From positions 1-32,247 of IMG/VR virus record IMGVR_UViG_3300031785_000028: DNA of 32,247 nt; one strand, given 5' to 3'. Origin of the DNA: a virus. Both the position numbers and the translations under genes were made by a program. Positions 778 through 19,586 of this stretch are shown one piece after another; the stretch's first letter is position 1, and each line of letters begins with the position of its first letter. The notes under the pieces are model-generated. The model was not told the DNA's origin. It worked only from the letters and a program-made list of their open reading frames with translations, and did no database searches.

Positions 778-1163
778 TTTTTCCTCAACATCTTGGCGGC
801 TTGGTTAACGCCCTTGATGCCGAACGACGCAGAGATTGCGATAAACAATAAGTATTGATACCAGTCAGGGAGAGTAGCTAGTACCTCAAACCCATCTCTC
901 ACATACTCTTTCATACCAGGAATGAAGACCAGGATTGCTGGGGTTAGTAGAACGACGAGGGCAAATTCGTCTTTCCAGGAGCCGTCTGTTGATTCAGCCA
1001 TCTTGCCTTCCCACTCGACTTCTCCAGCGGCGACTTTCTCTGCAACTGTTGCACGAGCTTTGGCTTCAGCAACCTTTGCTTGTCCGTCTGCCTTTGTCTT
1101 TTCGACCTTATTCTCTAGCCATGTCCCAGCTAGATTCGCTATTGGTCCTAAAAATTGTAACAT
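774..1163 (-). CDS. holin, three-TM type (GTA_holin_3TM-like)
   Basis: A 129-residue protein. The N-terminal half is amphipathic and Ala/Lys/Glu-rich (about 20-50, likely helical). It is followed by WKDEFALVVLLTPAILVFIP (about 62-81), a membrane segment, and a second hydrophobic region at about 103-117 (YQYLLFIAISASFGIKG), with a Lys-rich C-terminus (MLRKK). The WKDEF...LPDWYQ pattern is typical of the 'holin of 3TMs' family described for gene transfer agents and marine phages. The role would be to perforate the inner membrane and release the endolysin. Its start overlaps the giant gene's stop (TAATG), and its AGGAGG ribosome binding site is encoded by the last Lys-Gly-Gly codons of that gene. 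Family call good; the pore-forming role is from homology. Confidence 0.82.
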   Translation of the reverse strand: MLQFLGPIANLAGTWLENKVEKTKADGQAKVAEAKARATVAEKVAAGEVEWEGKMAESTDGSWKDEFALVVLLTPAILVFIPGMKEYVRDGFEVLATLPDWYQYLLFIAISASFGIKGVNQAAKMLRKK

Positions 1164-4100
1164 TAAAATCCTCCTTTACCGAAGCCTCCGCCTCCAAAGC
1201 CACCTTGATTACCACCAAAGCCTGAAGATGTTGATTTCCTACCTCCAGTTCCAGCTTCTCCAGCAACTAAGTCAACGACTTCTTCTTTAAATCCTCTTAT
1301 GCCACCAGCAACTGGGATTCTGCCCATGATAGAACGAACGGCTTCTCTTCTTCTAGCGTTCTTTCCTTCTGGGTCGAGAAGACTTTGGGGTCCAGCTATT
1401 CCAACATCAAAGATATCTTCTCCCAGTCCAACTGCTGGACCGAATATAGCTGAAGCAACTCTCATCTTTCCGTATGCTCCGTTGTCTGCTTGTGCGGCTG
1501 TGTTATGCAATAGTTCTCCGAAGAGACCTAATCCACCTATTGCTAATAATCCCTCGAAATAATTTCCAAGAATTATATCTCTATCACTACCTTCAGGAAC
1601 CCCTAACATCTCAGCTACAGTGCCAAGACCAAGTGGGTTACTATCGACAATGCTTCTTTCTCTTCTTGCAAAGGACTCGTTGTCCTCTCCACCTCTTGAT
1701 TGTGCGAAGTCTTTTGTTGTGTTTGCAAGGTATCCCATGCCAACTCCAGCGGTTGCCATGTAAACTGCTGGCTTTACGTTGCCCTTTCCAGCCTCTGAGA
1801 TTATGTACCTAGCCATTCTAGCCATCATCAACTGGAACGACTTAAGCTGAAACATCATAGAACCCCAAGGAGTCTGACCTAGTAGTGGTATCTCATTTGG
1901 ATTTGGAGTGAATATGGTTTCGTTAGTAAATCGTAACAGTGCGTAACGTAATGCTTTGTTAGATAAGATGTCTGTGTCACGAATGTCAGTAAGTTGTGGT
2001 GCACCATCAGCGACGAAGTCTGTCAACGCATTCTCACCTGTCATTCCATATCTTTCCAAGAATCTTATGGAAGTCCTGTAAGCCGTTGTGTTTGTTTGTC
2101 CATTCTGTTGTAAACGTCTAGCCCTTGCTATCTCTGCTTTGAACGCTTCAAAGCCGTGGATACCAGCTATCTCTCTTTGCATATTTGTCCAAGGTGTCAG
2201 CAATGTGAAATTGAAGAAGCTGTTTTGTAGCTTTTGTGAACCTTCTCCAGCCATCTGAACCATTCTGTCGTGAATCAGATTCTCTATGCTTACACCGATA
2301 TTCTTTGCGGCGGCTCTGTAACTTGGGTCAGTCATGTATTTAAACTGCGACTTAAGAAACGCACCCATGTTTCCAGAACGTATTAGCGGTAACACAAAGT
2401 CACCCATTGAAGTCAACGTCGTAAATCCTAACAAGCTAACTGCATTGAATGCTTTCACGTTTCGTGAAATTTTGTAGGACAACTCGTTACCAGAAAACTT
2501 TGTTAGCGGTCTCTTGTTAACAATGTCTACCATGTTCTCTGCTACTCTTAAGAACTCAGCAGATGGTTTTTGCAGTTTGAAGTCTGCAAGAGCATTTGCC
2601 ATTGCATCTATTCTCTTTTGAGTCTGAAGCTCAACTGCATCTCTAGGCTCATACAAACCAGACAAGACATTTTTTATTGCATGTTTGTTTCCTCTAGCAT
2701 CTTCGGCAACTAGTATGGCTATCTTCTCCATAGCTTCATCTATCCTGGATTCATCAGCAGAAGCTTTGGCAACGACTAGTTGTTCTATGTCTATTTCTGA
2801 TTGATACTGCCTCATCTTGTAACGTCGTTTCGCAGAGTTCATTAGTGCATCTTTGACTGCTTCTAACCCTCTCTCAGCAACAGTTACATAAGTTGCATAG
2901 GCGTGACCTCCAGTTCCAAGCTTATCAGCTATGGCTAGTTTTCTAGTTGTTCTATCAAAGTATTGAGTCATCAATCCTTCTAAGTCGTTGACCAAGAAGT
3001 CTGTCATGTAGTCGTACTGGTCAGGGTCTAGCTTGATAAGCCTTTGAAAGAATGGGTCTCCAACTGCTCTTCGTATTACGTCGTCACCATAAACCTCACC
3101 ACTTGTATCCATCATTGCATTTACCAAGTCTTCTGCAACTTGTCGTGGAGCCTTTTGATTTCCAGTGGACTCAAAGTCTGGTCGCCTTCTTTCTTCAACA
3201 AAGAACCTTGTGAATGCTTCTATTGCACCTTTAGGATTTTGCCTAATTCCTTCTGTGTCCCATTGTTGTGGAACATAGAACTCATCTGCACCCCTTCTCG
3301 TATCACCAACTGGCATACCAGCGTTTATTAAGTTCTTTCTCTCTTGTTCAAATGTGGCAATAATTAGACGTGCGGCTTGCTCTTCTCTTGCGTCGAGCTT
3401 TTGTACTGCACTCTCTCCACGACGAATGGCATTTAGTATTCTCCTGTGAGATGCGGGCTGTGCGGCGGCATCTCTGAGAGTTCCTAGTTTTCCTATGTCT
3501 GGAATAAGATAAGCATTTTTTCTAGCCCATCTTTTTGCCCAAGTGTCGTTGTCAGGCAACGTTTTTAGTATGTTCATAACAGGCATAATTTTGTCTGCTA
3601 AATCTACGTCGTGCCTTTCATACAAGCCAACTCCTTTTTCTGGTTTAATAAAATCAGCTAACCAGTGACCACCCATCATTCTTAGTCGTTGACTGTTTTC
3701 TTTGAAGAATCTGAAAACAGAAGAACTTTGCTTTACAGCTTGTTGGTCTTCAGAAGTAAGAGGCTCATTGCGTATAATCTTTTTGATAGGCTTTACCATC
3801 TCTGGTGAGCCAGCTTCTTGCAGACCTTTTGATATCTTGACTACGTCGTCTATGCTTACAGTTTTGTTCTTGAGAACCATGTGCTGTAACGTTGCTCCAG
3901 CTATGCCCTCAGTATCCTGTGCACCAAATACACTATAGTATATTCCTCTTCTGTCAGAGTCATACACCTCTGCATCAATATGTTTGATATGGTTTGGACT
4001 GAACATAGTAAATTGTTCGTCGCCATCTACCCCTGGAGTTCCAGCATGTATTCCTTCGTAACCTTCGTCTTGAAGAAACTTAGCAATCTTTTCTTTTGCT

Positions 4101-7100
4101 ATGGTTTCATTTGATGGGTCTACAGCTTCTATCAAAGATGAGTAAAGCATTTCGCCATCAAAGTCTTCGTCGCTACCCAAGTTTCTAATAAGTCTTTCTC
4201 TAGCGTCTGGCATTATTAAGTTGTTAACTTGAGCACTATTTATGAGATTGACGATATCATTTGGTTCGCCAGTGTTTACTGTGTAAATTTTGTTTGTTGA
4301 AAGGTCGAGTACGTTTTTAGTTCTTACAAATACTGGCAGTACACCAGAGTGAGTTCTGTACCCTGTTACTTGAGCAAAAGCTTTTTCTGCGGCTCTCTTT
4401 GAGGCTTTGATAGTTTCAATCTCTCTGAATATCTCGCCACCTGTTACTTCCATTAAGAAGTCGTCCATGCCGTATAGGTCGTAATCTTTCTCCATTAGAA
4501 GCTCTTCATATCTTTCCATAGACTCAGATATGTTTATTGCTTCTTGCTTGTTAGCACCATCTTCCATCTGAGATATGATGTTTTCTCTAGCACCCACCGC
4601 ACTTCTTTCATCTGGGTCTGCAAACACTTCTGCAAACCTAGCTTCAGGAGTGGTGTAAACGCCTGGTCCCATCATGCCAGTTTGGCTTGGTCGTATATAT
4701 ACGTCTGGGTTTTTGCTTCTGTTAAATACGTCAACCGCTGGTGTGCCATGATACTGGACGTATCGCATCAAATCTTCTTCAGGACCAATCCCTAAAAATT
4801 CTCTAACCAGAATTTTCTTTTCTTCAGTCATGTTGTCAACGACTTGTCTTGCGTAAGTGTCTGCTTGAGCAAGGTTTACCAATGGGTAATCAAACTCATC
4901 TACACTGTTCTTAACAGCCAGCCTCTGTCGTGAAGGAGCAAACATGTCGCCATGATATGTCATCTGACGGAACATCTGCCTGACAGACTTTCTGCCAATC
5001 AATCCGTTTACGACGTAAGCGACGTAGTCGAAAAACTTTTCTGCTAATATTGCTAACTGAGATTTACCTTGAAGTTCGTTGATTACTCCCTTTCCATGCC
5101 TAACGTTGAATATATCTCCTTTAGCTACTTTTCCTGATATCCATTGTGCCCAGCTTTCAACAAACCATTCTTCAGCAATGTCTGACTCTTTGTACCCAAC
5201 CTCTGGTGGAAGCTGTTTGTACTTTGCCGCCACGTCCATAGCCCTTGGGTCTTGCTTGGTTACAGCATCTCTGAAGGAGTTGAGCATCATGTCTCTGTCT
5301 GCTTCAGTGTGAATAGCACGGCTCATCATGTGACCAATCTCGTGCATCACGTCCATTGGGTCTGATTTTCCCTTAGTCAAACCTATTGCATATTTTCGAA
5401 CGTTCTTTCTTAAGTCGTTGAATACCATGCCGTTAGTTGGTGCAACTTCCATGAAAGCACCTTTGGCTTCAGGTAAAGCTTTGACCCCAGCTAAAGAATA
5501 CAAGTCTTTGACTGTCATAAATGTTGTGTGGTCATTTAAGTGTTCAGTAGCTGTTCTTCCTAAAAGATTCAGCATTCTGTAAAGCATAGTTCTGGAAGTG
5601 AACTCAATGTTCTTGTCTCTGTGAGTTATCTTTGAGAGAACTTCCTTAATTGCTGGAGGAGCATCTCCTGGAATACCATTAGCAGATTCGTACTTTTTGT
5701 TTTGTGCAATTTCTACGTCAATCGCTTTTCCAACCAAACTAGCTTTTGGCTTTGTAATGTTATTAGTTCTCTGTGATAAGAAACTAGCAACTAAATCTGC
5801 TTCGTCGTATCTGCCTTCTTCAATAGCGTTAGCAAGCTTTCGTCGTAAAAGGTTTACGACAGCACCCATCTGCTTTCCTGATTCAACCTGACTTAACTTA
5901 CTTATCTCTTTTGCGAGAGTGTTGCTAAACTCTTTTTCAGTATCAGACATTTGCTCCCAAGGCTTTACCTCTGGCTTAGCTTTCTTCCTTCTCATGTACT
6001 CTCGCTTGAGTGGATTGGTCTCAGCGTTGTCAACACCTAGCTCTTTTATCTTTTCGAGTAGCTCCCTGTCTTTCATGGAATGAGGTGACTTGTGAACCAC
6101 AGGGTCTACCGCTTGAGCACCATCTCCTATTTCATTTGCGTTGTGTTTGCCTTCTATGAAATCAACCATAGCCTTCGCATCTTGGAAGTCTGCGTTGTAC
6201 TGTCTTTGAACTATAGCTTTGGCTTTTGCATTTCCAGCACCAAATATCCTTCCAGCTTTATCAATGTTTGGAGCCTTTACATTAGACACACCCCTAGACA
6301 TATTTCTGTTGAACACATTAACAAACTCATCAATGCCAGTATCTAAGGCTACCAACATTTCATTTGCTTCTTGTACAAGAACGTTGTTTAGCTCTTGACT
6401 ATAAGGCACAGCCTCATCTTGTCCTTTTAAAACATTTGCTTGTGCTTCAAATGTAGATGCAAGTGCACCACTTGTTTGTTCTACTTCAACAGTGTTTACG
6501 CCAAACTCTTGTTCGGTCATTGCTATTTCTTGGTCAATGATGTCTGACTGTCTGTCTAAGTTTTGCTCATCAATAAGTTTTTGAAGCTCAGCATTGTCCA
6601 TCAATATTCTGCTGTCGTGAACAAGCCTATGTATTCTGTTGCTAGAACGAAGCATTCTGCCACGAGCTATTCGTGCATTTTGAAAATAGAAAGGATACAC
6701 TTCTTTACCATTGGCAAGTGTGATTGAGCCTTTTTCTTTGTTGTAGTTAGGCTTTCCCTTTTGATAGCTGTCTAAAAGACCAACTCTTTTTGCACCACTC
6801 TTATGAGTTCTTGCTCCAGGCTGACCGCCATACTTTCCATAAATCTTTGCTGATACTTCGGCTAAGACGTTTTGCAGTGCTTGGTTGTTTTTAGAGTCAC
6901 CGACGAGCATGGCATTTTCAGTCAAAGCCTTCTCAATCATAATCTGCATTTCTCTCAAGTCGTGAAGCTCTTGAGCAGAAAGACTTGCGGCACTAGTTTT
7001 GCTTTTAGTCATGCCGTTAATTTTTGTTAACAACTCATTGAATTGATTATTCAAAGAGCGTCCATTGGTAACAGTTCCTGATGCTGTTGGTGGGTCAGGC

Positions 7101-10100
7101 ATTATTCTTTCAAACAAAGGTATCAAGTCTGGGTCAACAGCTTCTTGTTTTACGTTAAACATTTTAGCTATCAACTGCTTAAGTTTGTAAGCGACGTTCT
7201 CAAACAATGATTGAGTCATGCCAGGGTTTTTCTTCAACGCATACAGTGCAAACTGATTTGCAAAGAACTCTGCTGGACTTTCTAGTTCGTTGCTGTGAAA
7301 ACCAGGAAGCCTTTTCTTTAGTTGTTGAACATCAACCCCTTGATTTTGAGACATATACTTCTTTGCTATACCCCAAAACTCTACTTTCTCTTGAGGTGAA
7401 AGCATGTTTGAGTACGCCCAATGTCCCATTTCATGTGCAAACTCTACTGTATCTGGAAGCTCATCTCCTTCAGCTTTTCCGCCTCTCATCACTACTGAGT
7501 TCGCATCAGTGTGTTCATTTAGACTATGATTTCTGTACCCATACTGAGAAAACTTTTCAAACTTCGGCATCACACTATCAGTAGGTGCTAAGCTTCTGTT
7601 TTGACTTCCAGCTATCTTATTGAAAAGAGTTAGAATAGCGGCAACGTCTGCTTCTTTTTTGCCAGTGAGCAACTTCTTAAGAGTCTGAAAGCTTGCCACT
7701 CTGGTATCGTTGTTCATTTTGATACCATTTGGAGCTAACTTTTCTAGTGTTTCGTAAGCACCTTCTAGGTTTTGAACCAGTGCTTCATACTTAGGTAAAG
7801 TCTTTATGTCTTTCCATTTGGTTGCTTCCATATCTCCTATGTATCTGAATAAGTCGCCAGCACTTCTTAGCCTACTAGCTATCTTTGTTTGCTCAAGTTT
7901 TGGAGATAGGTTTTCAGGAGTTAGAGCTATTGCATCTAACTGTTTTACATTTGTTGGTCTTTGGTCTCTTGCCCTTGGGCTTTTACCTAGAGGGTTTTCT
8001 ATGTTTGAAACAACCCCTACATCTTTTGCTAAGACGAACTGCCCCTGAAGATTAACAAACTTCTCTTCAGAATCTAAAGGTCTGAAAGTAGACCTAGTAA
8101 GTTTAGTGCTGTTCTTTTGAACTTGACCATCTGCATTAAATCTTTGACTTGTTCCAATGATGTACTGGTCTGGTCGTAACTTACCAGCCACATCTCCTAT
8201 GCTCTGAACATCTCCATTCCAAAGATTACGAGTTGTTCCAAACTTCTTGCCAAGGTTTGGGTCTACTAGTTGTAGAGTAAGCATTCTGTCTTCAGGTATG
8301 TCGAAGTCAGATGGCACAGAGTTTAGTGTTGGGTCATACTCTACAGCTTCATCTACCGCATTATCTACTACGTCGTTAGTATCAGAATCTATTGGAGTGT
8401 CTTTTCTGCCTTCATATCTTTGAGTCTTGTGCCAGTCAATAACCTCCATAGGTGCTTGTGAGCGTACACCTTCTGGGTTTATTCCCTTTTTATCTAGCAC
8501 TAAATCGAGTTCCTTCTGGAACATTTCAGCAATAGATATGTTGAAGTCTTTTTTATTGGTTACGCTTACATTATGTACTCTAGTGCCTATAGTCTTTGTG
8601 ATTGTTCCGCTAAACTTCCCATTAGACTCACCACGTTGCACAGTTCCCAAAACTTTGCCATCAATGATGATTTGTGCCTTGCCTTCTTTTAGTCGCTTAT
8701 AGGTTATGTCGTTAGCTATGTCGTAAACACGTTCTCCAATTTGAATGGGAATCGGATTGTTCTTTGTTCCAGAGGGCTTCGTGCTTGTATTTACTGGATT
8801 TTTGTCAGACTTGGAAACAACATCTTTTACTGCATCAGAAGCACCTTCCTCATCTATCAAGCCATCTACTTTCATCTGCTTGATTTGAGCAAGCATAGAG
8901 TTCATCTGGTCTTCATCAAGACCAGCGTTTAGAATTTGCTGTTCTATTTCTGCCGCACTTTGAGAGTCTGGTCGTGTACCAACGACGTTTTCAATAGCGT
9001 CAGAAACTTCGTCTTCGTTTAATTTTTGTGTACCCTCTTTTCCTACATTAGATTTTTTAAATTCTAGTTTAATTCTAGCCAGTTCTTGATTAGCTTGTTT
9101 AAACTGAGTGTCATCTAACGCCTTTTTCATACCTGGAGTTAGAATCTTCTTTAGTCTTTCTATCTCTTTTGCAATCTCGTCGTATCGTTGTTGCATAGCA
9201 ACAAGCTCTGAACTGACCTCACCTTCTGTTAGCCTGTTTTTCAAACGAAAATATTTTGGAGCCATTGCTTTCTTTTCTGCAAGCAATGTATCAATTTGAA
9301 TTAGTGGGCTGTTTTTTCTTTCTTCAACTACGTTTGCTGTCTGCTCTTGACGAGTGGACTTGACCAAAGGAGAGAGAAGTTCCTTCAATTCTTCTTTCAT
9401 TTCAACATCATCAAACTCTTCCAGGGGTCTGATGTTTGTGCCTTTGAGTTGTTCAGCAGTTTGGTAAGCTTTTCCTGAACCCCTCAAAATTTGTACTGCT
9501 CTTGTTCTTGCTGAGCTTAAGTCATTAGCGGCTTTTTCAGCCAACCTTTCTGCTCTGTCGAAATCCTTGTCCCCAGGTCTTTCCATCATAGTATCCAGTT
9601 CTGCTGAATACTTTTTAAGCCTGTTTCTTGAACTAGTAATATTAGCTATAACTTGCTCAAGTAACTCAACATCTCTGTGTTCTGAATACTTAGGAGAACC
9701 TTGGTTTTTTAATCTGTTGCTTTTGTCTATGCTTCTTTTTCTTTTAACAGCATCAACAGTCATGGCTTGAGATTGATTGTTTTTGAGCATATCAATCATT
9801 TGTATCTGCCTTGCGGCGGCATTACCTGTATAGACTCTCTTGACTCCATCGTTCGTCGTTTTAACTACGTCAAAAGTAGAAGAGCCAAAATAATCTTGAC
9901 CAGGTCTTAGTTGTTCAATAATTCTTTGAATCCTACCAACTTGCTTATTGGTAGTTTCCCTTCCAGAACCAGGCTTTCCATTTCCTTGAGTATAGTTGCC
10001 AAGTCTGTTTATAGAATGCCCCATGTAGTCTGCACCTGGGTTAGCCTCTACATCAGCGTCGCTAACAGATATGTCACGCATAGTCCTCGTCGTTAAACCT

Positions 10101-13006
10101 TTAACGCTATAGGATTTTCCGTGATTAGATACTCTGGTAAATGTTTCTTTTTCAGCAAACTTGTCCCAAATTGCCGCAATGTTTCTGTTAAACAATGCTC
10201 TTGTTTTCGCTTCACTTATCTTTGGGTTAAGCTTCATAAATACTTTCATTTGAGAATTAAGAAACTTGTTCCATCTTTCAGTTATCTCTGGGAACTTTTG
10301 TTTCTGTTCTTCTACATAAGCTTTAGAGTCAAACTTATTTGGGTCAGCCTTTTGCATAGATGTGTCAAAGTTTGAGTCTATGTACTTATCTATTGTGCTT
10401 GTCAGCTTTGTTTCGCCATAAATGCTCTTAATAAAACCTCGTAGCTCTGAAATAGTCGCAACCTCTCCAAGCTCAAATTGTGCGTCAAGGATTATTCTTT
10501 CTAACTGAGAGTCTTGCCACTCTGAGAAGTGTTGGAACGCATGAACTCGTAAGTGTTCTGGAACAGTTTCTGTAATTAAGGTGTTTACAATCTCTTGGTC
10601 AAGAAGGTGTGCTGGCACTTGACCCCTTGGAGCATTTCGAGAAGCAATTCTCAAAAAGTTATTAAAAGCTTCTTTTCCTTGAGAAGAATCAATAATGCTC
10701 CTAAGAACAGAAACACGCCCAGCCCTTGCTTCAAGGGTGTTGCCCTTGGGCATGTCAGCTAAAACTTCATTCGCTTTTGCTTTGTCGTAACCTAATTGAA
10801 GCAGTAGTTCTGTTACGTTACCCTTAGTCGCCTTGAAGTTGCTTAGTTCATTATTTAGCTGTTCATCTACTGATAAAAATCTTTCTTTGAAATCTTGAAG
10901 CTCTGCCGCAACCTCTAAAACAAACTCATCTTCTGCTGTAAAACCCTCATCATCTACATTCTTTTTTATATCTGATAATGTTTCTGCGTCACCAGCATCT
11001 TTAGACACTGGTTGCTCTGCCTCAATTTGTTGCTTAAGTTCTTTGAACCTAACTCTTGCTTCTTTTTGCTCTACGTTAAGTGCTTCAATTTGCTCATCTA
11101 AAGACTTTATTATCTCAGGATTTGTTTCTGCATCTCTTTTCTTTCTTAGTGCGGCTCTTTGTTTTTCAATGCCATCTTTGTTTCTTGAAAGTTTTTTCTT
11201 AAGGACTTCAAATTCTGCCGCCCTTGCCACTCTTTCTGATTCTAATTTTTCTAATTCTGCGGCTTCTGTGCCTTCTACTCTAGCGTCTCCCTGGCTAACA
11301 ACTTGTTCGTCGTCAGGAAGCCCACTTCTGTCAGGAGCCGCTCCATCAGCAACTGTGCCTTCGTCTGTCATGGTGAAACCTTCACCTTGCACTGCACCTT
11401 GCTGTTCTGTTGTAAATCCTTCACCACTAACAGTTCTAGTGTTCTGGTTTTCCAGAAGACCCATTATGTTTCGGTCATCTGTTAAGTTTAGAACTTCGTC
11501 GTCAACTATCTTTTCTACTTTATCGTCCATATGCTCAAGCAAGAGAGGGTCTTGCTTCTGAGTTTGGTTACGCATGAACGTCGTAAACTCAGAATGAGTT
11601 CTGTCGCCTCTTTCTATCGCATCATCAATCTTTGAAATCCTAGCGTCAGGTGTTCCAGAGCCAGCTTCTTCAGGACTCATCTTAGCTAAGAGTTCTTCCC
11701 TTGCTTTTACAAGTGCTGGTCTGCGAGTCTTACGCCACTCTTTTAACCATTTAAGTTTTTGTATAGATTTTTTTGCACGTTGTATTTCTGGGTCTGAATC
11801 AAAATTTCTGTTCGTCGTATCTAAAACGCCGCCTTCATCTACTCTTTGACTAGAGTTTCCTTCAGGAAATCTTTGTCCGTTTAGTTCTTCTAATTTGTTA
11901 GCAATGTCTTGCTCATTGACTGCTATCAAATCATCAAACAACTGATTGTCGTTTGCATCTTCACCAAAAGGGATTTCGTTCTCTAAACTTCCAGTGCCTC
12001 CGTCAACATCTACAGATGCTTGCAACTCTGGTCTTAGCTTTTGTTGTAATGTCTTTGATTTTTGTATTGCCGCATCAATCTCACCACGACCAACGGACGA
12101 CTTAGTTAGCTCACTAGCCGCATCAACGCTAATGCCCATCTCTTCAGCAATAGCTTCTAAGTTCTCTCCCATCATGTCTTCTCTGGTGGCTTGCATGCCT
12201 CCTGGTCTGTTGCCAATAACACCGCCTTTGTCGCCGACTATTCTTGAGTCATCAAATGGTCTAAACCCTTTAACACCAAGGTTTCTAAACTTCCCAACAG
12301 CGGCTCCAGCACCAAGTCCTCCACCGATTATTCCGCCAGTTGCTGTGCCTAATCCTACTGCACCAGCAAGTCGTCCATAGCTAAATTCGTCTTGTAACCC
12401 TATTTCTATGTTTCGGTTTTGCATTCCGATATCGGCTATGCCTTCAACAACACCACCAGCTACACCTTCACCGATAGCACCAGCTTTCATACCAGCCCTC
12501 ATGCCAGTTCCCATGAAGCCTCTTGTTAGATTTCCAGATAGTTTGGCGGCTGTAACTGCGGTTCTTGCGGCGGCTCCACCAGCACCGAAACCTATAAGGT
12601 TTAGTGGGTCAAATGCTAGAGCACCAGCAATACTAAGAGCGGCTTGCCCTTTGTCGCCGACAAAGTTAGGCATAGCGTCGTAAGCTTTTTGTATTCTTGC
12701 TAGTCGTCTGGATTGTGCGTCGCTTTGAGTTTTAGCGTCGTAAACATCTTTACCTATAGAAACTGTATTAAGGTTTCTCCAGCGTCTGTCTGATAAAAAG
12801 TATTCAACAGCTTCTTGCTGACCAGAAAAGCTTTTTCCGTCACGTTCGCCATAATACGAATATATATCTTCTAAGAACTCAGGGTTGCTTAGTAGTGCTT
12901 CCGCTTCATCTTCTTGTAAGTTTTCAGTATAATCCGCCTGTTGATATTCATTAGTAACAGTAGAATTATTATAAGAACCAGAACCTGGTTTGTAATGAAC
13001 TGCCAT
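1163..13006 (-). CDS. giant multidomain polyvalent/ejection protein (3947 aa): glycine zipper, two zincin motifs, ADP-ribosyltransferase-like domain
   Basis: One uninterrupted 3947-codon frame, ATG at 13006 after CTGGAGTATCC. Visible layout: Gly/Ala-rich hydrophobic glycine-zipper-like region at about 120-240; charged coiled coil at about 578-660; zinc-metallopeptidase motif HEMGH at 1858-1862, with SPAEFFANQF (E1913) as candidate third ligand; second motif HEIGH at 2555-2559, followed by AEEWFVESW (about 2611-2619); ART-like domain with YHGT (H2753), GPGVYTT (Y2784) and EQFTMFSP (E2997), giving an H-Y-E triad; a long helical region at about 3020-3900; and a Gly/Phe-rich tail ending GFGGGGFGKGGF. 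These domains match the polyvalent-protein class described by Aravind and colleagues in phages and conjugative elements. Its place after a row of internal virion proteins matches T7/P22 gp16, so ejection with the DNA is inferred. No lytic transglycosylase motif was seen. Existence certain; domain roles inferred. Confidence 0.9.
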   Translation of the reverse strand: MAVHYKPGSGSYNNSTVTNEYQQADYTENLQEDEAEALLSNPEFLEDIYSYYGERDGKSFSGQQEAVEYFLSDRRWRNLNTVSIGKDVYDAKTQSDAQSRRLARIQKAYDAMPNFVGDKGQAALSIAGALAFDPLNLIGFGAGGAAARTAVTAAKLSGNLTRGFMGTGMRAGMKAGAIGEGVAGGVVEGIADIGMQNRNIEIGLQDEFSYGRLAGAVGLGTATGGIIGGGLGAGAAVGKFRNLGVKGFRPFDDSRIVGDKGGVIGNRPGGMQATREDMMGENLEAIAEEMGISVDAASELTKSSVGRGEIDAAIQKSKTLQQKLRPELQASVDVDGGTGSLENEIPFGEDANDNQLFDDLIAVNEQDIANKLEELNGQRFPEGNSSQRVDEGGVLDTTNRNFDSDPEIQRAKKSIQKLKWLKEWRKTRRPALVKAREELLAKMSPEEAGSGTPDARISKIDDAIERGDRTHSEFTTFMRNQTQKQDPLLLEHMDDKVEKIVDDEVLNLTDDRNIMGLLENQNTRTVSGEGFTTEQQGAVQGEGFTMTDEGTVADGAAPDRSGLPDDEQVVSQGDARVEGTEAAELEKLESERVARAAEFEVLKKKLSRNKDGIEKQRAALRKKRDAETNPEIIKSLDEQIEALNVEQKEARVRFKELKQQIEAEQPVSKDAGDAETLSDIKKNVDDEGFTAEDEFVLEVAAELQDFKERFLSVDEQLNNELSNFKATKGNVTELLLQLGYDKAKANEVLADMPKGNTLEARAGRVSVLRSIIDSSQGKEAFNNFLRIASRNAPRGQVPAHLLDQEIVNTLITETVPEHLRVHAFQHFSEWQDSQLERIILDAQFELGEVATISELRGFIKSIYGETKLTSTIDKYIDSNFDTSMQKADPNKFDSKAYVEEQKQKFPEITERWNKFLNSQMKVFMKLNPKISEAKTRALFNRNIAAIWDKFAEKETFTRVSNHGKSYSVKGLTTRTMRDISVSDADVEANPGADYMGHSINRLGNYTQGNGKPGSGRETTNKQVGRIQRIIEQLRPGQDYFGSSTFDVVKTTNDGVKRVYTGNAAARQIQMIDMLKNNQSQAMTVDAVKRKRSIDKSNRLKNQGSPKYSEHRDVELLEQVIANITSSRNRLKKYSAELDTMMERPGDKDFDRAERLAEKAANDLSSARTRAVQILRGSGKAYQTAEQLKGTNIRPLEEFDDVEMKEELKELLSPLVKSTRQEQTANVVEERKNSPLIQIDTLLAEKKAMAPKYFRLKNRLTEGEVSSELVAMQQRYDEIAKEIERLKKILTPGMKKALDDTQFKQANQELARIKLEFKKSNVGKEGTQKLNEDEVSDAIENVVGTRPDSQSAAEIEQQILNAGLDEDQMNSMLAQIKQMKVDGLIDEEGASDAVKDVVSKSDKNPVNTSTKPSGTKNNPIPIQIGERVYDIANDITYKRLKEGKAQIIIDGKVLGTVQRGESNGKFSGTITKTIGTRVHNVSVTNKKDFNISIAEMFQKELDLVLDKKGINPEGVRSQAPMEVIDWHKTQRYEGRKDTPIDSDTNDVVDNAVDEAVEYDPTLNSVPSDFDIPEDRMLTLQLVDPNLGKKFGTTRNLWNGDVQSIGDVAGKLRPDQYIIGTSQRFNADGQVQKNSTKLTRSTFRPLDSEEKFVNLQGQFVLAKDVGVVSNIENPLGKSPRARDQRPTNVKQLDAIALTPENLSPKLEQTKIASRLRSAGDLFRYIGDMEATKWKDIKTLPKYEALVQNLEGAYETLEKLAPNGIKMNNDTRVASFQTLKKLLTGKKEADVAAILTLFNKIAGSQNRSLAPTDSVMPKFEKFSQYGYRNHSLNEHTDANSVVMRGGKAEGDELPDTVEFAHEMGHWAYSNMLSPQEKVEFWGIAKKYMSQNQGVDVQQLKKRLPGFHSNELESPAEFFANQFALYALKKNPGMTQSLFENVAYKLKQLIAKMFNVKQEAVDPDLIPLFERIMPDPPTASGTVTNGRSLNNQFNELLTKINGMTKSKTSAASLSAQELHDLREMQIMIEKALTENAMLVGDSKNNQALQNVLAEVSAKIYGKYGGQPGARTHKSGAKRVGLLDSYQKGKPNYNKEKGSITLANGKEVYPFYFQNARIARGRMLRSSNRIHRLVHDSRILMDNAELQKLIDEQNLDRQSDIIDQEIAMTEQEFGVNTVEVEQTSGALASTFEAQANVLKGQDEAVPYSQELNNVLVQEANEMLVALDTGIDEFVNVFNRNMSRGVSNVKAPNIDKAGRIFGAGNAKAKAIVQRQYNADFQDAKAMVDFIEGKHNANEIGDGAQAVDPVVHKSPHSMKDRELLEKIKELGVDNAETNPLKREYMRRKKAKPEVKPWEQMSDTEKEFSNTLAKEISKLSQVESGKQMGAVVNLLRRKLANAIEEGRYDEADLVASFLSQRTNNITKPKASLVGKAIDVEIAQNKKYESANGIPGDAPPAIKEVLSKITHRDKNIEFTSRTMLYRMLNLLGRTATEHLNDHTTFMTVKDLYSLAGVKALPEAKGAFMEVAPTNGMVFNDLRKNVRKYAIGLTKGKSDPMDVMHEIGHMMSRAIHTEADRDMMLNSFRDAVTKQDPRAMDVAAKYKQLPPEVGYKESDIAEEWFVESWAQWISGKVAKGDIFNVRHGKGVINELQGKSQLAILAEKFFDYVAYVVNGLIGRKSVRQMFRQMTYHGDMFAPSRQRLAVKNSVDEFDYPLVNLAQADTYARQVVDNMTEEKKILVREFLGIGPEEDLMRYVQYHGTPAVDVFNRSKNPDVYIRPSQTGMMGPGVYTTPEARFAEVFADPDERSAVGARENIISQMEDGANKQEAINISESMERYEELLMEKDYDLYGMDDFLMEVTGGEIFREIETIKASKRAAEKAFAQVTGYRTHSGVLPVFVRTKNVLDLSTNKIYTVNTGEPNDIVNLINSAQVNNLIMPDARERLIRNLGSDEDFDGEMLYSSLIEAVDPSNETIAKEKIAKFLQDEGYEGIHAGTPGVDGDEQFTMFSPNHIKHIDAEVYDSDRRGIYYSVFGAQDTEGIAGATLQHMVLKNKTVSIDDVVKISKGLQEAGSPEMVKPIKKIIRNEPLTSEDQQAVKQSSSVFRFFKENSQRLRMMGGHWLADFIKPEKGVGLYERHDVDLADKIMPVMNILKTLPDNDTWAKRWARKNAYLIPDIGKLGTLRDAAAQPASHRRILNAIRRGESAVQKLDAREEQAARLIIATFEQERKNLINAGMPVGDTRRGADEFYVPQQWDTEGIRQNPKGAIEAFTRFFVEERRRPDFESTGNQKAPRQVAEDLVNAMMDTSGEVYGDDVIRRAVGDPFFQRLIKLDPDQYDYMTDFLVNDLEGLMTQYFDRTTRKLAIADKLGTGGHAYATYVTVAERGLEAVKDALMNSAKRRYKMRQYQSEIDIEQLVVAKASADESRIDEAMEKIAILVAEDARGNKHAIKNVLSGLYEPRDAVELQTQKRIDAMANALADFKLQKPSAEFLRVAENMVDIVNKRPLTKFSGNELSYKISRNVKAFNAVSLLGFTTLTSMGDFVLPLIRSGNMGAFLKSQFKYMTDPSYRAAAKNIGVSIENLIHDRMVQMAGEGSQKLQNSFFNFTLLTPWTNMQREIAGIHGFEAFKAEIARARRLQQNGQTNTTAYRTSIRFLERYGMTGENALTDFVADGAPQLTDIRDTDILSNKALRYALLRFTNETIFTPNPNEIPLLGQTPWGSMMFQLKSFQLMMARMARYIISEAGKGNVKPAVYMATAGVGMGYLANTTKDFAQSRGGEDNESFARRERSIVDSNPLGLGTVAEMLGVPEGSDRDIILGNYFEGLLAIGGLGLFGELLHNTAAQADNGAYGKMRVASAIFGPAVGLGEDIFDVGIAGPQSLLDPEGKNARRREAVRSIMGRIPVAGGIRGFKEEVVDLVAGEAGTGGRKSTSSGFGGNQGGFGGGGFGKGGF

Positions 13007-13071: not shown

Positions 13072-15417
13072 CTATGGGTTGAATCTACCATCTATGTTTC
13101 TTCTCATCATCAGAATGATACTAGTCGCTCTCGAATTGGGTCTAATTCCGCCAGCAGTTCCCGATGGACCTACATTCGGTTGACCACCTAGGACGAGTAT
13201 AGCGAAGTCTGCTGGGTTATCAATTTGTTGACCATTGCTGTTGTTAGGAAGATTTCCGTTACTCTTCATGTCTGAATACATTTGATAAAGTATATCAGCT
13301 ATATGATTTTCAGCAGTGTCTTTGTCGCTTCCACCAACAATGCCAGAAGTGTAACCTCCAAAGCTTCTCATGTTAGGACTTTGCATTAAGTCCGTTCCTA
13401 CCTTTTTAGGGTCGGTTGCAATCTGAGTTAAAACTGGAGCGTTTCCAGCACTTCCTGGGTCGTACTTCTCAATCGTGCCATCAGCACCAACCCTTATTAA
13501 ATCACCTTCCAGAACAGGACTGCCATTTTTATCTGTAACAGCCACTTCAGTGTAGCCAGTAGGAGCATTATCTGATGCAATTTTCTTTTTCAAGTCTACT
13601 GTCATAAGCTTGTAGCCTTGTCTCCACAAGTTACCTCTTGGTAACACATAAGAGCCTTTAGGCAACATTGAGCCTCTTCTTTCTCCAGACCTTACTTCTG
13701 TCATTATGTCTTCTTTTGTTTTAACCATTTCTGCTTTTAAGTTAGCGACTTCTTTTTCTATTGTGCTTCCGCTGTCTGGAAACACATCAAAAGCTCCTAG
13801 GCTTTTCATGTAAACATTAACAGTTGCATCTATATAATTGTCGAACTCTGCATCTAAGTTATTGATAAAGGCATCGAACCTGGGGTCGTCTATATCTACA
13901 TTAACTGTAAATTTTATTAACTGGTCTTTAATGTAATCTTCCATAGTTTTGATATAGTCTTTTTTGTCTTCATCTATTTGAGTCATGAAATCAGTCTGAG
14001 GCTTAAAGCCCAAGCCTGACTTAGACATTTGGTCGCTCATAACAGCTTCTCTAAATTCACTTTCAGGCATCATATAATTAGATAGCACTGCCCTAATTGA
14101 ATTTTCTTCTTCTGCACTGTAGCTACCTTTTGTTTTAGAGTTTGGAAAATCTTTAATAATATTTTGAGTTAGCGTAATTGCGTCTACTGTCGGTCTAAGA
14201 ACCATTCCACTATTTATCATACTCCTAAATGCTAACTGAGCAGATGTTCCATCTTGAAACATGCTACCTCTGCCTAAGAGTTCTTGCTTATATTGCTTCA
14301 CTATTGCATCAACTTTAGTTGTTGCTTTCTTTTCTGCCTCTTCATAGTTTGCTTTATAAGAACTGTTATATCTTATGCCTATGCTTGCCATATGGCTCAA
14401 GTACTGAGAGTCAGTTGCTTCTACTTCTGGCAAGCCTTTCTCTCTTCTTAAGTCGTTATAAAGGTCTAAGGTTTCTTTTGAGTTGAAGCCTCTGCCATCT
14501 TTTCCATGTTTAAAGAACTGCTCTCCGCCTTGCCCACGAACCAAAGCGTTAAACTCTTTTTCCATTTGTGTTGTGTATTCTGTTTTAGAGTGAGATATTT
14601 TAGCTTCTAATTGAGCTTTTACAGATGCTTTTAATTTTTTATATTGTTCGTCACCCATCAACGTTTTGTTGACTTTCGCTCTAGCTAGAATGCCGTCAAC
14701 TTCAACTTCTATTTGTGCGTCACTAAAATGCCTTAAGTTCGAAGTTACAGTTGAAAAATTATCTACAAGCTTTAAAGCTTCTGTAGTGGTGTCTGAAACA
14801 AACTTAGATTGTTTTTGTTTCATAATAGAAGTTATGGCATTCTTCTTCCAAGGCTTAACGCCATTGGCATTCATTATGGCTTCTGCTTCTTCCATAGTGT
14901 GAACGTTTTGTAGAAACAAATCATGAAACTCTTGTGCCCCTTTTTGCCTTCCATCTAAGATAGCTTCTGCAAACTTACCAGAATTTCTTGCCCATATTTC
15001 TTCGCCAAGTTCTTTTGCTTCTGGAAATAAAGCCATGAACTTTTGCTTGTTGCCTATCATGTCGGTTGGGTCTAAGTTCAAGTTGTCCATCACAAATGTG
15101 TTGAACAAGTCTTGAGTCTTTTTTCTGTTTTCAGCAAACTTTGCATCTTCAGCTACTCTTGTGTTCAAAGATTGCTGATTAGTTCTCTTTGCCATCTCTG
15201 ACAACATAGAGCCTGGACCTAGGTCTTGTAAAAGAAAAGCATCTCCACCAGAAAGGCTTTGACGCATTTGCTGAAAGTCAGCAACAGAAACTTCGTCGCC
15301 GTTCTCTATACGCATCTTTCTGTAAGCTTCGAAGGCTTCTCTGTTCTCCCTTCGCTTCTTATCAATTCTATCTTCTTCTTTTCTTTTAGCATCAAGAAAA
15401 CCAGATGATATCCTCAT
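13072..15417 (-). CDS. probable internal virion (ejection) protein, 781 aa
   Basis: A 781-residue, largely helical, highly charged protein starting MRISSGFLDAKRKEEDRIDKKRRENREAF... (coiled-coil-like up to about residue 40). Long Lys/Glu-rich helices occupy about 80-500. The last 200 residues are more mixed, with a DUF-like segment containing LPKGSYVLPRGNLWRQGY (about 590-610) and GYTSGIVGGSDKDTAENH near the C-terminus. No enzyme motif is visible. It lies directly before the giant gene and after a coiled-coil virion protein, the place held by T7 gp15 (internal core protein), so an ejected core protein is the best inference. Its ATG overlaps, in an ATGA, the stop of the +1 frame of the upstream gene, which is relevant to the frameshift there. 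Product call moderate; gene certain. Confidence 0.75.
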   Translation of the reverse strand: MRISSGFLDAKRKEEDRIDKKRRENREAFEAYRKMRIENGDEVSVADFQQMRQSLSGGDAFLLQDLGPGSMLSEMAKRTNQQSLNTRVAEDAKFAENRKKTQDLFNTFVMDNLNLDPTDMIGNKQKFMALFPEAKELGEEIWARNSGKFAEAILDGRQKGAQEFHDLFLQNVHTMEEAEAIMNANGVKPWKKNAITSIMKQKQSKFVSDTTTEALKLVDNFSTVTSNLRHFSDAQIEVEVDGILARAKVNKTLMGDEQYKKLKASVKAQLEAKISHSKTEYTTQMEKEFNALVRGQGGEQFFKHGKDGRGFNSKETLDLYNDLRREKGLPEVEATDSQYLSHMASIGIRYNSSYKANYEEAEKKATTKVDAIVKQYKQELLGRGSMFQDGTSAQLAFRSMINSGMVLRPTVDAITLTQNIIKDFPNSKTKGSYSAEEENSIRAVLSNYMMPESEFREAVMSDQMSKSGLGFKPQTDFMTQIDEDKKDYIKTMEDYIKDQLIKFTVNVDIDDPRFDAFINNLDAEFDNYIDATVNVYMKSLGAFDVFPDSGSTIEKEVANLKAEMVKTKEDIMTEVRSGERRGSMLPKGSYVLPRGNLWRQGYKLMTVDLKKKIASDNAPTGYTEVAVTDKNGSPVLEGDLIRVGADGTIEKYDPGSAGNAPVLTQIATDPKKVGTDLMQSPNMRSFGGYTSGIVGGSDKDTAENHIADILYQMYSDMKSNGNLPNNSNGQQIDNPADFAILVLGGQPNVGPSGTAGGIRPNSRATSIILMMRRNIDGRFNP

Positions 15418-15509
15418 GTCTTTGCCTTTCTAGGTCTGCCTCTTTTCTTACGGACCACCAGCCCCTGTGTATCGGTTGCTGTTGCCGACGAGGAGGTTGT
15501 TCCTTTTTT
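15414..15509 (-). other. +1-frame C-terminal extension with AT-hook-like KRGRPRK tail
   Basis: From the A6 homopolymer (T6 at 15504-15509 on the plus strand), the +1 frame encodes a Thr/Ser/Ala linker and the basic end VVRKKRGRPRKAKT. It stops with TGA at 15414-15416, inside the ATGA that starts the next gene. GRPRK tails are AT-hook-like, and similar endings are common in phage structural proteins. Most genes in this window end in such stop/start overlaps, whereas the 0-frame stop does not. This supports the tail being the natural C-terminus of the gene starting at 16389. The longer open frame up to 15908 is otherwise a shadow of that gene. Confidence 0.6.
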
Positions 15510-16389
15510 GTAAGTCTGAAATTTGTTTTTTAAGGGCTTCGATTTCAGCTTGACTGCTGTTAGTCGGCTTATCTGTTTTACCGAGCATATAGCCGACATT
15601 AGGAGCGACATTTTTCGATATGTCGCCTTCAAGAGTTCCCACAGCACTTCTTGAATCTGCCGCATTAGTCCTAGCATTCCTAACAAAAGCACCTTGATTC
15701 CGTGAAGTATTTTCGAAAAGAGTTCCAGCATTGCTTGGAAGAACCCCCTTAAGGATATCTGCTGAATCTTTATACTGCCCACCAATCTCGCCAAGACGTT
15801 TTTCACGCCCTGAGTAAATTGTGTCGAGATTTGCTTGAGTTCTATTAATTGCCGCATTGTAAGCCTCCTGGTCAATTTTGCGTAGCTCCTCGGCACTTTG
15901 CTGACCAAGTTCTCTTTGCGTGTCTCTGAACCTATCTGACCTATCCATGCCTTTAGCTATTGCGTCAGCGAAACCTTGTGATGAAACTCTATCTAAAGTG
16001 TTATAATAATCATCTACCATTGTTTCCCTGATTTGTTGGTAGTTTCTGTTTATATCATCTTGAGAAGCAGTTGGTGCTTGCCCCATAGCTTGTCTTGCAT
16101 TTGCTAGAGCTTGCTCCAAAAGCTGTGCTCTACTCACAATACCTTGTCGTAAAGCTGTTTCTTCTTGGGCACGTCGTTGTGCCATATTCATTTGTTGTTG
16201 CAGTATTCTTCGTTGTGCTTCTATTTCACGACGTTCAATCTCTTCGTCTCGTTCCGCTTGTTTTCTTGCTTGGTAGTAATCAAATATTTTACCGCCAGCT
16301 TGAATGCCCATTGCGGCTCTTGATGGGTCTCCGTCCTCACCTGGGTATAACGACGATATCCCTTTTGCTACATAATCTCCAAAGCCCAT
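15448..16389 (-). CDS. coiled-coil internal virion protein (T7 gp14-like position), C-terminus probably frameshifted
   Basis: A 313-codon frame, ATG at 16387-16389 preceded by AGGAG. The N-terminus MGFGDYVAKGISSLYPG is followed by a long Glu/Arg/Gln-rich coiled coil (about 40-125: EEIERREIEAQRRILQQQ and on), helical repeats to about 220, and a short C-terminal coiled coil EIEALKKQISDLQKRN (about 281-296). The small helical character and the place just before the 781-residue protein resemble T7 gp14. The reading frame as given ends NRYTGAGGP, leaving a 30-base gap to the next gene. Removing one A from the A6 run at 15504-15509 instead gives DLQKGTTSSSATATDTQGL and then VVRKKRGRPRKAKT, ending in an ATGA overlap with the next gene. 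Either a one-base sequence error or +1 frameshifting is likely. Full-length product would be about 324 residues. Confidence 0.75.
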   Translation of the reverse strand: MGFGDYVAKGISSLYPGEDGDPSRAAMGIQAGGKIFDYYQARKQAERDEEIERREIEAQRRILQQQMNMAQRRAQEETALRQGIVSRAQLLEQALANARQAMGQAPTASQDDINRNYQQIRETMVDDYYNTLDRVSSQGFADAIAKGMDRSDRFRDTQRELGQQSAEELRKIDQEAYNAAINRTQANLDTIYSGREKRLGEIGGQYKDSADILKGVLPSNAGTLFENTSRNQGAFVRNARTNAADSRSAVGTLEGDISKNVAPNVGYMLGKTDKPTNSSQAEIEALKKQISDLQKRNNLLVGNSNRYTGAGGP

Positions 16390-17307: not shown

Positions 17308-19119
17308 CTATCCAAATAATATTCCAGAGCGTCGATTGTCTCTATCAACTTCTCTTTGAGTTGCTCTTCTAGTTGTAACACTTCCTGTGTCTCTATTTCG
17401 TCCTCTTTGAAGATATCTGCCACCAAAACCTCTGTTCATCATGTTCATCATTAACGAAGCATCGTTGTTTTGTAAGGTAAGAGGTGTTGTTTCTGTGCCA
17501 AAGTTTTGTAATGTGTTCACATCTAATGGTGTTTTTTTGATGTTTTGTAACGGGTCAACGTAATTTGTATCGTTTCCGCCGTCATCGTTGTTGTTATTAT
17601 TGTTGCTTCCACCACTCTTCAAGTTAGAGCCAAACCCTGAATCTGTATAATCTATATCACTGTCTTGCCCTGTCTCATCAACAGCTTGTAGGTCAGACTG
17701 AATTGATGATGTTACTCCTGACTTAGTATTTACAGTAGCCTTTGTTCCTTTTCCACCACTGCCTGTTGGCAGTTCATCATAGTTTTTGCCAGCAATATTT
17801 ATTGACCCAGGAAGACCTAACTTTTCACTGCCTTCTGTTACCAAATCTTTTATAACTTTGTTTGAAGCAACTACTCCAGTCATGGCAAGTGGGATATTGC
17901 CTGTCTCTTTGTAAATGCCCTTTGCTACTTCCCCACCTACTGGTCCACCTATGTACTTAGCTCCAAGGCTTCCCATAAGATTTGATGGACTTAAAGTAAT
18001 ATTTGGATTCGAGCCTAACTTTGCCTCTCCTCCAGATGCCCAGCTACTTAATGTCTGTTCCCCAAAGTTTACATCTAATGCACCAGTAGCAAGCCTTGCC
18101 GCATTTGACATTCCAGAAGTTGCATACATTGTAGCTAAATCAACTCCAGTTCCAAGAAGTTGATTACCTTGACTCGTAGCTGTTATTTGTCCGCTGTCAG
18201 TGATTCTGAAGTTTGTGCCGCCTAGACCTTGTGCAATGTTAATATCTGTAAATGGAACGTTTATGTCCACACCAGAGCCAGAGTTTAATCCATCTACAAT
18301 AGCTTTAGCATACTCTGCACCACTCAGTTGTCCAAACCCTCTGATATTCGCAACGTTATCTGCACCTAATACCTCTAGCACATACGCTCTCATTGAAGGG
18401 TCATCTTGCCTTTGACTCTTGCCAAGCTCTCTAGCAAAGTCTTGCAGTGCTTGTGTTTGCATTTGTTTGTTGTTTGACGCTACCCCTTGCATCAGAGACT
18501 GTTGAGTATTGTAAGGTAGGTTTGAAAAAGCTGGGTTATCTCTTAAATCATTTAGCTTAGTATTTGTGTCTCTATTATCTTTTACATATGCGTCTGCATC
18601 GTTCTGTGTTTTTTCATACTCTTCCCTGTGTTCGCCACTTCTGTAATCTTTGTTTTGAGTTCTTAAACTTTCTGCGGCAAACGCCTCTTCATGATAAGGA
18701 GAGTTGGGATTTGTGGCTTGGTTAACAAAAGAAGACCTCTTCGCACTGTTCTCATCAAACTCTTCTTTAGTAACGTTTTTGCCATCTATGCTGTAAATCT
18801 GACTGACTTCCCCAGTGGCAAAGTCTGTAACATTTCTAACAACTCCGACGGAAGGAACTTTATCTCCAGGAGACCAGCCCCCTGAAGCACCAGTAGCGTC
18901 GTCAGAGAAATATGTTCCAGCAGTGGCTTCAGCGTCATTGCTGAACATGCTTTTTTCTTGTTCTTCTCGTTCTTGTTCATCAAGAAGGTCCATTATTTCT
19001 TGGTCTAACGCCTCTCTTTCTTCGTCGGTCATCTTTGTGTTCGTGCCGCCGAATATGTTTTTACCAGTGGTATCGTTTAAGCCATCATTATTTTGGTCGT
19101 CTCCAGGAGAATTGCCCAT
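17308..19119 (-). CDS. probable virion protein, 603 aa, MGNSPG N-terminus
   Basis: A 603-residue protein opening MGNSPGDDQNNDGLND, followed by an acidic helix (EEREALDQEIMDLLDEQ, about 34-50) and a charged helical middle. A more hydrophobic, Gly/Ala-rich part spans about 300-430 (e.g. LMGSLGAKYIGGPVGGEVAKG), possibly glycine-zipper-like and membrane-active. Asn/Asp/Gly-rich linkers include NNNNNNDDGGND at about 510. The C-terminus is Arg-rich (RGFGGRYLQRGRNRDTG, then RRATQREVDRDNRRSG). Its ATG overlaps the stop of the GNAT gene (TAATG), and the following gene begins 9 bases after its stop with the same MGNSPG. The hydrophobic Gly-rich part in an ejection-protein cluster suggests a protein that enters or crosses the host envelope. 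This is inference. Confidence 0.65.
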   Translation of the reverse strand: MGNSPGDDQNNDGLNDTTGKNIFGGTNTKMTDEEREALDQEIMDLLDEQEREEQEKSMFSNDAEATAGTYFSDDATGASGGWSPGDKVPSVGVVRNVTDFATGEVSQIYSIDGKNVTKEEFDENSAKRSSFVNQATNPNSPYHEEAFAAESLRTQNKDYRSGEHREEYEKTQNDADAYVKDNRDTNTKLNDLRDNPAFSNLPYNTQQSLMQGVASNNKQMQTQALQDFARELGKSQRQDDPSMRAYVLEVLGADNVANIRGFGQLSGAEYAKAIVDGLNSGSGVDINVPFTDINIAQGLGGTNFRITDSGQITATSQGNQLLGTGVDLATMYATSGMSNAARLATGALDVNFGEQTLSSWASGGEAKLGSNPNITLSPSNLMGSLGAKYIGGPVGGEVAKGIYKETGNIPLAMTGVVASNKVIKDLVTEGSEKLGLPGSINIAGKNYDELPTGSGGKGTKATVNTKSGVTSSIQSDLQAVDETGQDSDIDYTDSGFGSNLKSGGSNNNNNNDDGGNDTNYVDPLQNIKKTPLDVNTLQNFGTETTPLTLQNNDASLMMNMMNRGFGGRYLQRGRNRDTGSVTTRRATQREVDRDNRRSGILFG

Positions 19120-19586
19120 TACAACTCCTTTCTATAAGAAGCACCAGCTACGTCGTAGCCATATCTCTTCATAAACTTTGCCCACTTCTCTGCATACTGA
19201 ACATGAGACGTAGGATTATAGTGCATGAGCGAGCACCCATTTGCTTTTGCCCATTTTTCCCATTCTTTAAAAAAGCCCATCATAGTCCACACAGTTCCAG
19301 ACCCTTTTTGCACCCACAAGACATCTTCGTCGCTGACCCTTTCATCTGTAAAAAACATTTCAGACCAGTGAGCAACGAAGAGACCATAGATTCCTTTTTC
19401 ATTTTCCGACACAAGGAATAGTTTATATGGGTTTGCGATTGTTCTTTTTGCATACTCTGCAACCTTTTCTGGGACATACGCTCTGCTCCCCCAGTAAGAG
19501 GTGGCATGGAACGACTTACCCAAATCAACACAACTCCCCACATCTTCTAACCTCGCTCTCCTTATTATAAAATTACTTGTCATCAT
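19119..19586 (-). CDS. GNAT-fold protein, T7 gp13-like
   Basis: A 155-residue protein. FIIRRARLEDVGSCVDLGKS at the N-terminus is a typical GNAT beta1-alpha1 opening. The centre has the strand/turn pattern KLFLVSENEKGIYGLFVAHW, then a helix FFKEWEKWAKANGCSLMHYN, and the C-terminal W-KFMKRYGYDVAGASYRKEL resembles the last GNAT strands. The GNAT acetyl-CoA loop (Q/RxxGxG/A) is poorly matched (QKGSGTVW at about 93-100), so catalysis is uncertain. T7 gp13 belongs to such a GNAT-like family and is needed for virion assembly, and this gene precedes the other internal-virion candidates just as gp13 does. Two Met codons stand in tandem at the start. The first overlaps the upstream gene by 14 bases. 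Fold call fairly good; enzyme activity open. Confidence 0.75.
   Translation of the reverse strand: MMTSNFIIRRARLEDVGSCVDLGKSFHATSYWGSRAYVPEKVAEYAKRTIANPYKLFLVSENEKGIYGLFVAHWSEMFFTDERVSDEDVLWVQKGSGTVWTMMGFFKEWEKWAKANGCSLMHYNPTSHVQYAEKWAKFMKRYGYDVAGASYRKEL

Follow-up and report, generated by a model that had tools for sequence, protein, structure and literature searches.

A giant protein of a CRP-810-type marine phage with predicted enzyme-like domains between two ends resembling gp16-type ejection proteins

Introduction

The T7 proteins gp14, gp15 and gp16 leave the phage head before the DNA and build a channel, with four copies of gp16 located at the inner membrane; a preprint on phage N4 identifies its giant virion RNA polymerase (vRNAP) as the counterpart of T7 gp16 (PMC12633501). 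T7 gp16 and the TEP/OEP of phage PhiM1 carry peptidoglycan-hydrolase domains (PMC11440229; annotation). Polyvalent proteins, a second group, are very long polypeptides encoded in a late-gene context in which metallopeptidase (MPTase)-like and ADP-ribosyltransferase (ART-PolyVal) domains occur together (Iyer et al. 2017, PMC5512222). T4 Alt is an ART that acts on a host target (PMC5512222). Giant ejection proteins bearing polyvalent domains have a precedent in the N4-like vRNAPs (PMC5512222, PMC12633501), including that of Roseovarius Plymouth podovirus 1 (RPP1). Polyvalent zincin–ART proteins, giant ejection proteins and the combination of the two, in the RPP1 vRNAP, are thus already known.

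Here we describe a giant protein encoded by a 32,247-base virus contig from IMG/VR (the window). Roseobacter phage CRP-810 is the founding member of a marine phage family (PMC11288001), and its major capsid protein (MCP) shares 62.7% identity with that of the window; the contig is that of a CRP-810-type marine phage. An initial annotation had proposed that its longest gene encodes an injected anti-host weapon built into an ejection protein. Given the N4-like precedent, this combination is less unprecedented than was first suggested.

Results

A single uninterrupted frame encodes the giant protein

The giant gene (1163..13006, minus strand) reads from an ATG at 13006 to 1163, encodes 3947 aa (438.7 kDa) and occupies 37% of the window; the frame, which had been reported with its length and its share of over a third of the window but no strand, is present on the minus strand. 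Uninterrupted homologues of 3873–4014 codons, each in one frame, were found in L004 (54% identity), L005 (43%) and L007 (39%), so the frame did not arise by chance. The only cultured relative found, roseophage CRP-810 (OR671924; L002), also carries a full-length homologue, but in pieces: it is annotated as three ORFs, gp36–gp35–gp34, with gp36 named internal virion protein D. This difference from the window is attributable to two frame breaks, at about 9065–9126 and 15069–15142. The gp35/gp34 break falls on a perfect tandem duplication of ~30 nt that is absent from relatives; at the gp36/gp35 break the frames overlap, as they would after a small indel. We considered whether the three ORFs could be natural pieces. 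Because relatives (L065, L087, L075 and L085) read straight through the gp35/gp34 break point, this was rejected in favour of frame breaks, be they real or errors of assembly, as the likelier cause.

The gene ends a series that resembles ejection-protein genes in order and size

Upstream of the giant gene the order is MCP, tail proteins, an acetyltransferase (phrog_1249; 19119..19586, minus strand) in place of T7 gp13, then proteins of 603, 299, 313 and 781 aa. The giant gene is followed, on the lysis side, by genes for a phrog_2524 protein, a small product, a phrog_27150 member and an endolysin. Order and sizes fit the series acetyltransferase/gp13, gp14, gp15, gp16, the 313-aa helical protein (15448..16389, minus strand) being gp14-like and the 781-aa protein directly upstream of the giant (13072..15417, minus strand) gp15-like by position only. 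A gene for 620–900 aa directly precedes the giant gene in most family members for which upstream sequence is available; its product is too divergent to be assigned to gp15 from sequence.

Other features of the contig were recorded. A long frame with an AT-hook-like tail, RKKRGRPRKAKT, overlaps and runs just past the 313-aa gene (15414-15908, minus strand). Its counterpart in L004 (7068-7583) ends in PKKRGRPKKVK, and no such AT-hook-tailed overlapping frame was found in L007 or CRP-810; either a frameshift that extends the gp14-like gene or an overlapping gene might account for it. The adjacent genes at 16399-17298 and 17308-19119 (minus strand) encode low-complexity products that both start MGNSPG and are possible paralogues. 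A protein that runs off the contig end at 29971-32247 (minus strand) has RCC1-type repeats, and its N-terminal part is tail-fibre-like (phrog_4219, phrog_30742).

Both ends of the protein are homologous to ejection proteins

Scanned as a single sequence against Pfam and PHROG, the giant protein gave nothing significant, so family-wide scans were needed. Surveying the ORFs of all contigs collected yielded 60 non-redundant members, ~2.9–4.1 k residues long when complete.

The N-terminal module (residues 1–250; 12257..13006, minus strand) is Gly/Ala-rich. Residues 31–241 are homologous to the N-terminus of internal virion protein (IVP) D of pelagiphage HTVC109P and its relatives (35% identity; hhalign probability 99.9, E = 1e-36). 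The genes upstream of HTVC109P IVP D belong to the T7 gp13 and gp14 families (phrog_308, phrog_805), which makes this protein the positional counterpart of T7 gp16. A glycine zipper had been proposed at about residues 120–240; a Gly/Ala-rich stretch is indeed present by composition (39 G+A per 100 residues at 101–200 and 34 at 201–300), accompanied by hydrophobic peaks at 122–140 and 213–231. A sequence search of the N-terminal segment against the PDB returned nothing.

The C-terminal ejectosome module (residues 3030–3947; 1166..3919, minus strand) is the most conserved part of the protein, and its 918 residues recur in 243 environmental viral contigs. An AlphaFold2 model built from 59 sequences (pLDDT 75.5) is almost all helix and ends in a disordered Gly/Phe-rich tail, in agreement with the long helical C-terminus and tail described initially. 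Compared with PDB folds, the model had one significant match, the PhiM1 C4 ejectosome (8vb2_A; E 3.6e-4, probability 1.00). The low TM-scores of this match (0.21/0.18) are expected of a long flexible helical chain, so we take it as evidence of kinship and not of a close fit. T7 core protein 7eyb_I appeared at rank 14 (E 1.1, not significant), and a sequence search of the C-terminal segment against the PDB returned nothing. The C-terminal region also matched a 1004-aa protein of Escherichia phage TL-2011b (AEW24591; hmmsearch 6e-24, hhalign E 1e-20), a member of phrog_342, "internal virion protein with endolysin domain".

Other pairings were examined and set aside. The C-terminus gave one short, weak match to T7 gp16 (603-673, hhalign probability 9%), and direct homology is not claimed; its match to pelagiphage IVP D was not significant (hhalign probability 2%) and homology there was rejected. 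No significant sequence match was found between the giant protein and T7 gp16, N4 vRNAP or RPP1 vRNAP.

Judged from these sequence comparisons, the homologies at the N- and C-termini point to a gp16/IVP D-type ejection protein. The proposal that the gene encodes the last ejection protein accordingly held for the protein itself, while its gp14- and gp15-like neighbours could be placed by position alone.

Domain order is nearly constant around a variable stretch

The order N-terminal module, variable stretch, zincin 1, (zincin 2), ART and C-terminal module was found in 60 diverse members, with occasional domain loss; a few of them have no detectable zincin 2 or ART. Residues ~250–1760 (7727..12259, minus strand) form the variable stretch, ~540–1700 aa across the family, which aligns with the closest relatives only and in which no domain was identified. 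Residues ~660–1750 had been singled out as unexplained, and a profile search of residues 660–1760 likewise returned just weak coiled-coil-like matches; a sequence search of the middle segment against the PDB gave nothing. An RNA polymerase in the middle of the protein was rejected, as neither family scans nor comparison with the N4 and RPP1 vRNAPs gave a match. An E3-binding Pfam domain was matched in one relative (L136) and occurs neither in the window nor in most members. One 3277-aa member (L146) lies on a scaffold of Poseidonocella sp. HB161398 (NZ_VATA01000004.1) beside genes for a Cas4-like exonuclease and a primase-polymerase; this locus is probably a CRP-810-like prophage or phage remnant.

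Two HExxH domains are conserved such that one site is always kept

Both HExxH motifs that had been reported, at residues 1858 and 2555, are present at those residues, and two such motifs are unlikely by chance in this protein (P = 0.0025, 2000 composition shuffles). Zincin-like domain 1 (residues 1760–2060; 6827..7729, minus strand) contains HEMGH (residues 1858–1862; 7421..7435, minus strand) and a third ligand, E1913 (7268-7270). Its HExxH and the third Glu, in SPxEFFANxF, are each kept at 96–97%, with all four residues kept in 53 of 60 readable rows. Seven full rows, from one clade, have lost the HExxH (HAxxQ, SSxxE etc.) and the third Glu alongside it. HExxH domain 2 (residues 2400–2720; 4847..5809, minus strand) contains HEIGH (residues 2555–2559; 5330..5344, minus strand) and a candidate third ligand, E2613 (5168-5170), within AEEW. 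This second Glu is kept in every row with an intact HExxH and is often replaced where the HExxH is lost. Sequence searches of both domains against the PDB returned nothing; weak family matches were to Tox-MPTase3, M91 and M48, which comprise toxin/effector and general peptidases.

Among the 60 readable proteins, the window and CRP-810 included, both sites are present in 32, zincin 1 only in 21, zincin 2 only in 7, and neither in none. On a tree of the C-terminal module, zincin 2 was lost about five times, and zincin 1 shows two changes, one a true clade and the other, in L036, an artefact of the contig end. A hand calculation from the counts, with rows taken as independent, puts the chance of seeing no double loss at ~4%; because the rows are related, this figure is suggestive only. 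Reciprocal loss was therefore not treated as a strong statistic, zincin 1 loss being essentially confined to one clade.

What the zincins would do can be considered in light of this pattern. One possibility is that they act during entry and not in the cytoplasm, replacing the T7 gp16 transglycosylase and cutting peptidoglycan cross-links or periplasmic proteins to make way for the channel. Neither the giant protein nor the 781-aa and 313-aa proteins yielded a peptidoglycan-hydrolase domain, which fits such a role given that T7 gp16 and PhiM1 TEP/OEP have one, as does the retention of at least one zincin in every readable protein. The weak family matches are not to wall peptidases, however, and the ART would be left unexplained, so that we regard a role in entry as unlikely. 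A role confined to virion assembly seems improbable to us as well. Here the zincins would not be weapons; ahead of packaging or in the course of it, they would process the giant protein, and possibly further head proteins too, in the way suggested for P1 DdrB. This role agrees with the proposal of Iyer et al. that autoprocessing is the main role of polyvalent zincins (PMC5512222), and the sufficiency of one active site in every lineage would be expected of a maturation step; yet the N4 vRNAP, with its zincin-like domain, is packaged uncut (PMC5512222), and the ART and its conserved place between cargo and C-terminus are not accounted for.

An ART-PolyVal-like domain precedes the C-terminal module

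Residues 2720–3030 (3917..4849, minus strand) form an ART-PolyVal-like domain, an identity supported by profile and fold. Its motifs in the giant protein are YHGTP with H2753 (4748-4750), GPGVY with Y2784 (4655-4657) and EQFTMF with E2997 (4016-4018). The Pfam profile PF18760 (ART-PolyVal) matched a stretch within it (3968..4396, minus strand; E 5.3e-6) at 21.6 bits, below the 31.2-bit cut-off, which three relatives exceeded. When a profile of this region was compared with the PDB, the only matches were weak ones to tankyrase/PARP, in the right register.

In BFVD, a model of zincin 2 and the ART together (pLDDT 85) matched phage entries titled "Large polyvalent protein associated domain" (E = 1.5e-16) and others titled "PolyVal ADP-Ribosyltransferase" (E = 2e-3 to 5e-3). 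Against PDB folds no match was significant, helical bundles swamping the list, with tankyrase-2 at rank 50 (E 2.8). In domain 2 the helices bearing the HExxH and the third Glu are seen, a third Glu ligand being conserved by sequence in domain 1 also, but the model has no strand and so has no three-stranded beta-sheet core as described for polyvalent MPTases. A fold search thus bore out the ART part of the original proposal through the PolyVal hits, and two HExxH domains with a conserved third ligand are present, whereas the expected sheet of zincin 2 is absent from the model.

Each residue of the H-Y-E triad reported initially is found at its given position. Iyer et al. describe polyvalent ARTs as having H, Y and D in strands 1, 2 and 5, respectively (PMC5512222); the triad here is therefore close to, and not, the textbook set. 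Across the family H is conserved in about 90% of rows and Y in about 95%. At the third position, which lies five residues ahead of the Phe in FxPxxVKH, 32 of ~57 readable rows have D or E. (The pattern count misread the window's own row, which has E2997 at this position.) H or Y has been lost in several lineages. Together with the variable third residue, these losses suggest that ART catalysis is possibly not essential. In L030, L034, L035, L025, L026, L021 and L031 the ART His is Asn, zincin 2 is lost and zincin 1 is intact.

Such variation raises the alternative that the zincin- and ART-like domains are non-catalytic structural filler, a folded or unfoldable core mass. The degeneracy of zincin 2 in 21 of 60 proteins and of zincin 1 in 7 of 60, and the all-helical model of zincin 2, are consistent with it, as is the inconstant third residue of the ART. 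But zinc ligands disappear set by set, and no protein has lost both; zincin 1 is complete in most readable rows, and ART H and Y are largely kept. We therefore consider structural filler very unlikely.

Discussion

The middle of the giant protein appears to comprise two protease-like domains and one ADP-ribosyltransferase-like domain, set between two ends that resemble parts of an ejection machine; the machine that delivers DNA would then probably deliver enzymes into the host too. The reading we favour, and consider reasonably probable, is that the protein is functionally equivalent to T7 gp16/IVP D: the final ejection protein of a short-tailed phage, and its largest, made about threefold bigger by internal cargo. 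A few copies would probably sit in the internal core above the portal and be threaded unfolded through the tail before the DNA. The C-terminal module would help to build a trans-envelope channel, the Gly/Ala-rich N-terminus would probably act at the membrane, and the cargo of two HExxH metallopeptidase-like domains and an ART-PolyVal-like domain would enter the host with the rest of the protein. At least one zincin would then cut, most simply, the giant protein itself, for ART release or ejectosome remodelling, or else a host protein. The ART would bind NAD+ and modify a host target early in infection, as T4 Alt does. A reading as an anti-host weapon is plausible, with both activity and target predicted.

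A more speculative version, which we judge quite unlikely, has the zincin act as an ejectosome timer: a cut after ejection would free the ART into the cytoplasm and dismantle or close the trans-envelope channel, with the two proteases redundant. As either zincin would be enough, this would explain the retention of one zinc site per lineage.

The arrangement joins two ideas that are usually kept apart, ejection proteins as parts of a DNA channel and polyvalent proteins as injected effectors. Because the cargo lies between identifiable ejection ends, in a family represented in pieces in the cultured CRP-810, cutting of an ejectosome protein after delivery becomes testable, which bears on how a transient ejection channel shuts. 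It also indicates that annotation of the "internal virion protein D" core gene in CRP-810-type phages is incomplete.

Comparison with known systems

PhiM1 TEP and T7 gp16 have what appears to be the same position in the gene order as the giant protein and, unlike it, are ~1.1–1.3 k residues long with an endolysin/transglycosylase-like domain; in the model the giant's C-terminal fold is shared with the PhiM1 tetrameric ejection protein (8vb2). The last ejection protein of TL-2011b, whose gene follows those for a phrog_418 internal virion protein and a lytic transglycosylase, has a C-terminal module homologous to that of the giant over ~580 columns, but it is without cargo domains and its N-terminus does not match. 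Conversely, IVP D of the Pelagivirus group (e.g. HTVC109P gp40, 1268 aa) is like the giant in its N-terminal ~210 residues and occupies what appears to be the same place, after gp13/gp14-family genes and a gene for a ~660-aa protein, yet is one third of the length, with no zincin, ART or C-terminal module detected.

N4-like vRNAPs are, similarly, giant third ejection proteins at the end of a late block, as is seen for the vRNAPs of both N4 and RPP1, and the RPP1 vRNAP (3760 aa) has zincin-like and ART domains in one polypeptide like the giant. These proteins differ in having an RNA polymerase module, none being found in the giant, none of whose segments showed homology to them by sequence. With HExxH domains and an ART-PolyVal domain in a late-gene protein that is putatively virion-associated, the giant would fall within the definition of polyvalent proteins as long virion-associated proteins with at least two domains of unrelated biochemical activity; with them it shares context, domain types and very great length. 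In polyvalent proteins, though, domains are freely shuffled, whereas domain order in the giant family is nearly constant across ~60 diverse members, and the giant differs further in having a chassis identifiable at both ends as that of a gp16-type ejection protein. What appears to be new, going by sequence, is a protein in which both ends are gp16-type ejection modules, with enzyme cargo in place between them and no RNA polymerase, and whose architecture seems near-constant across a large marine family in which one zinc site is always kept.
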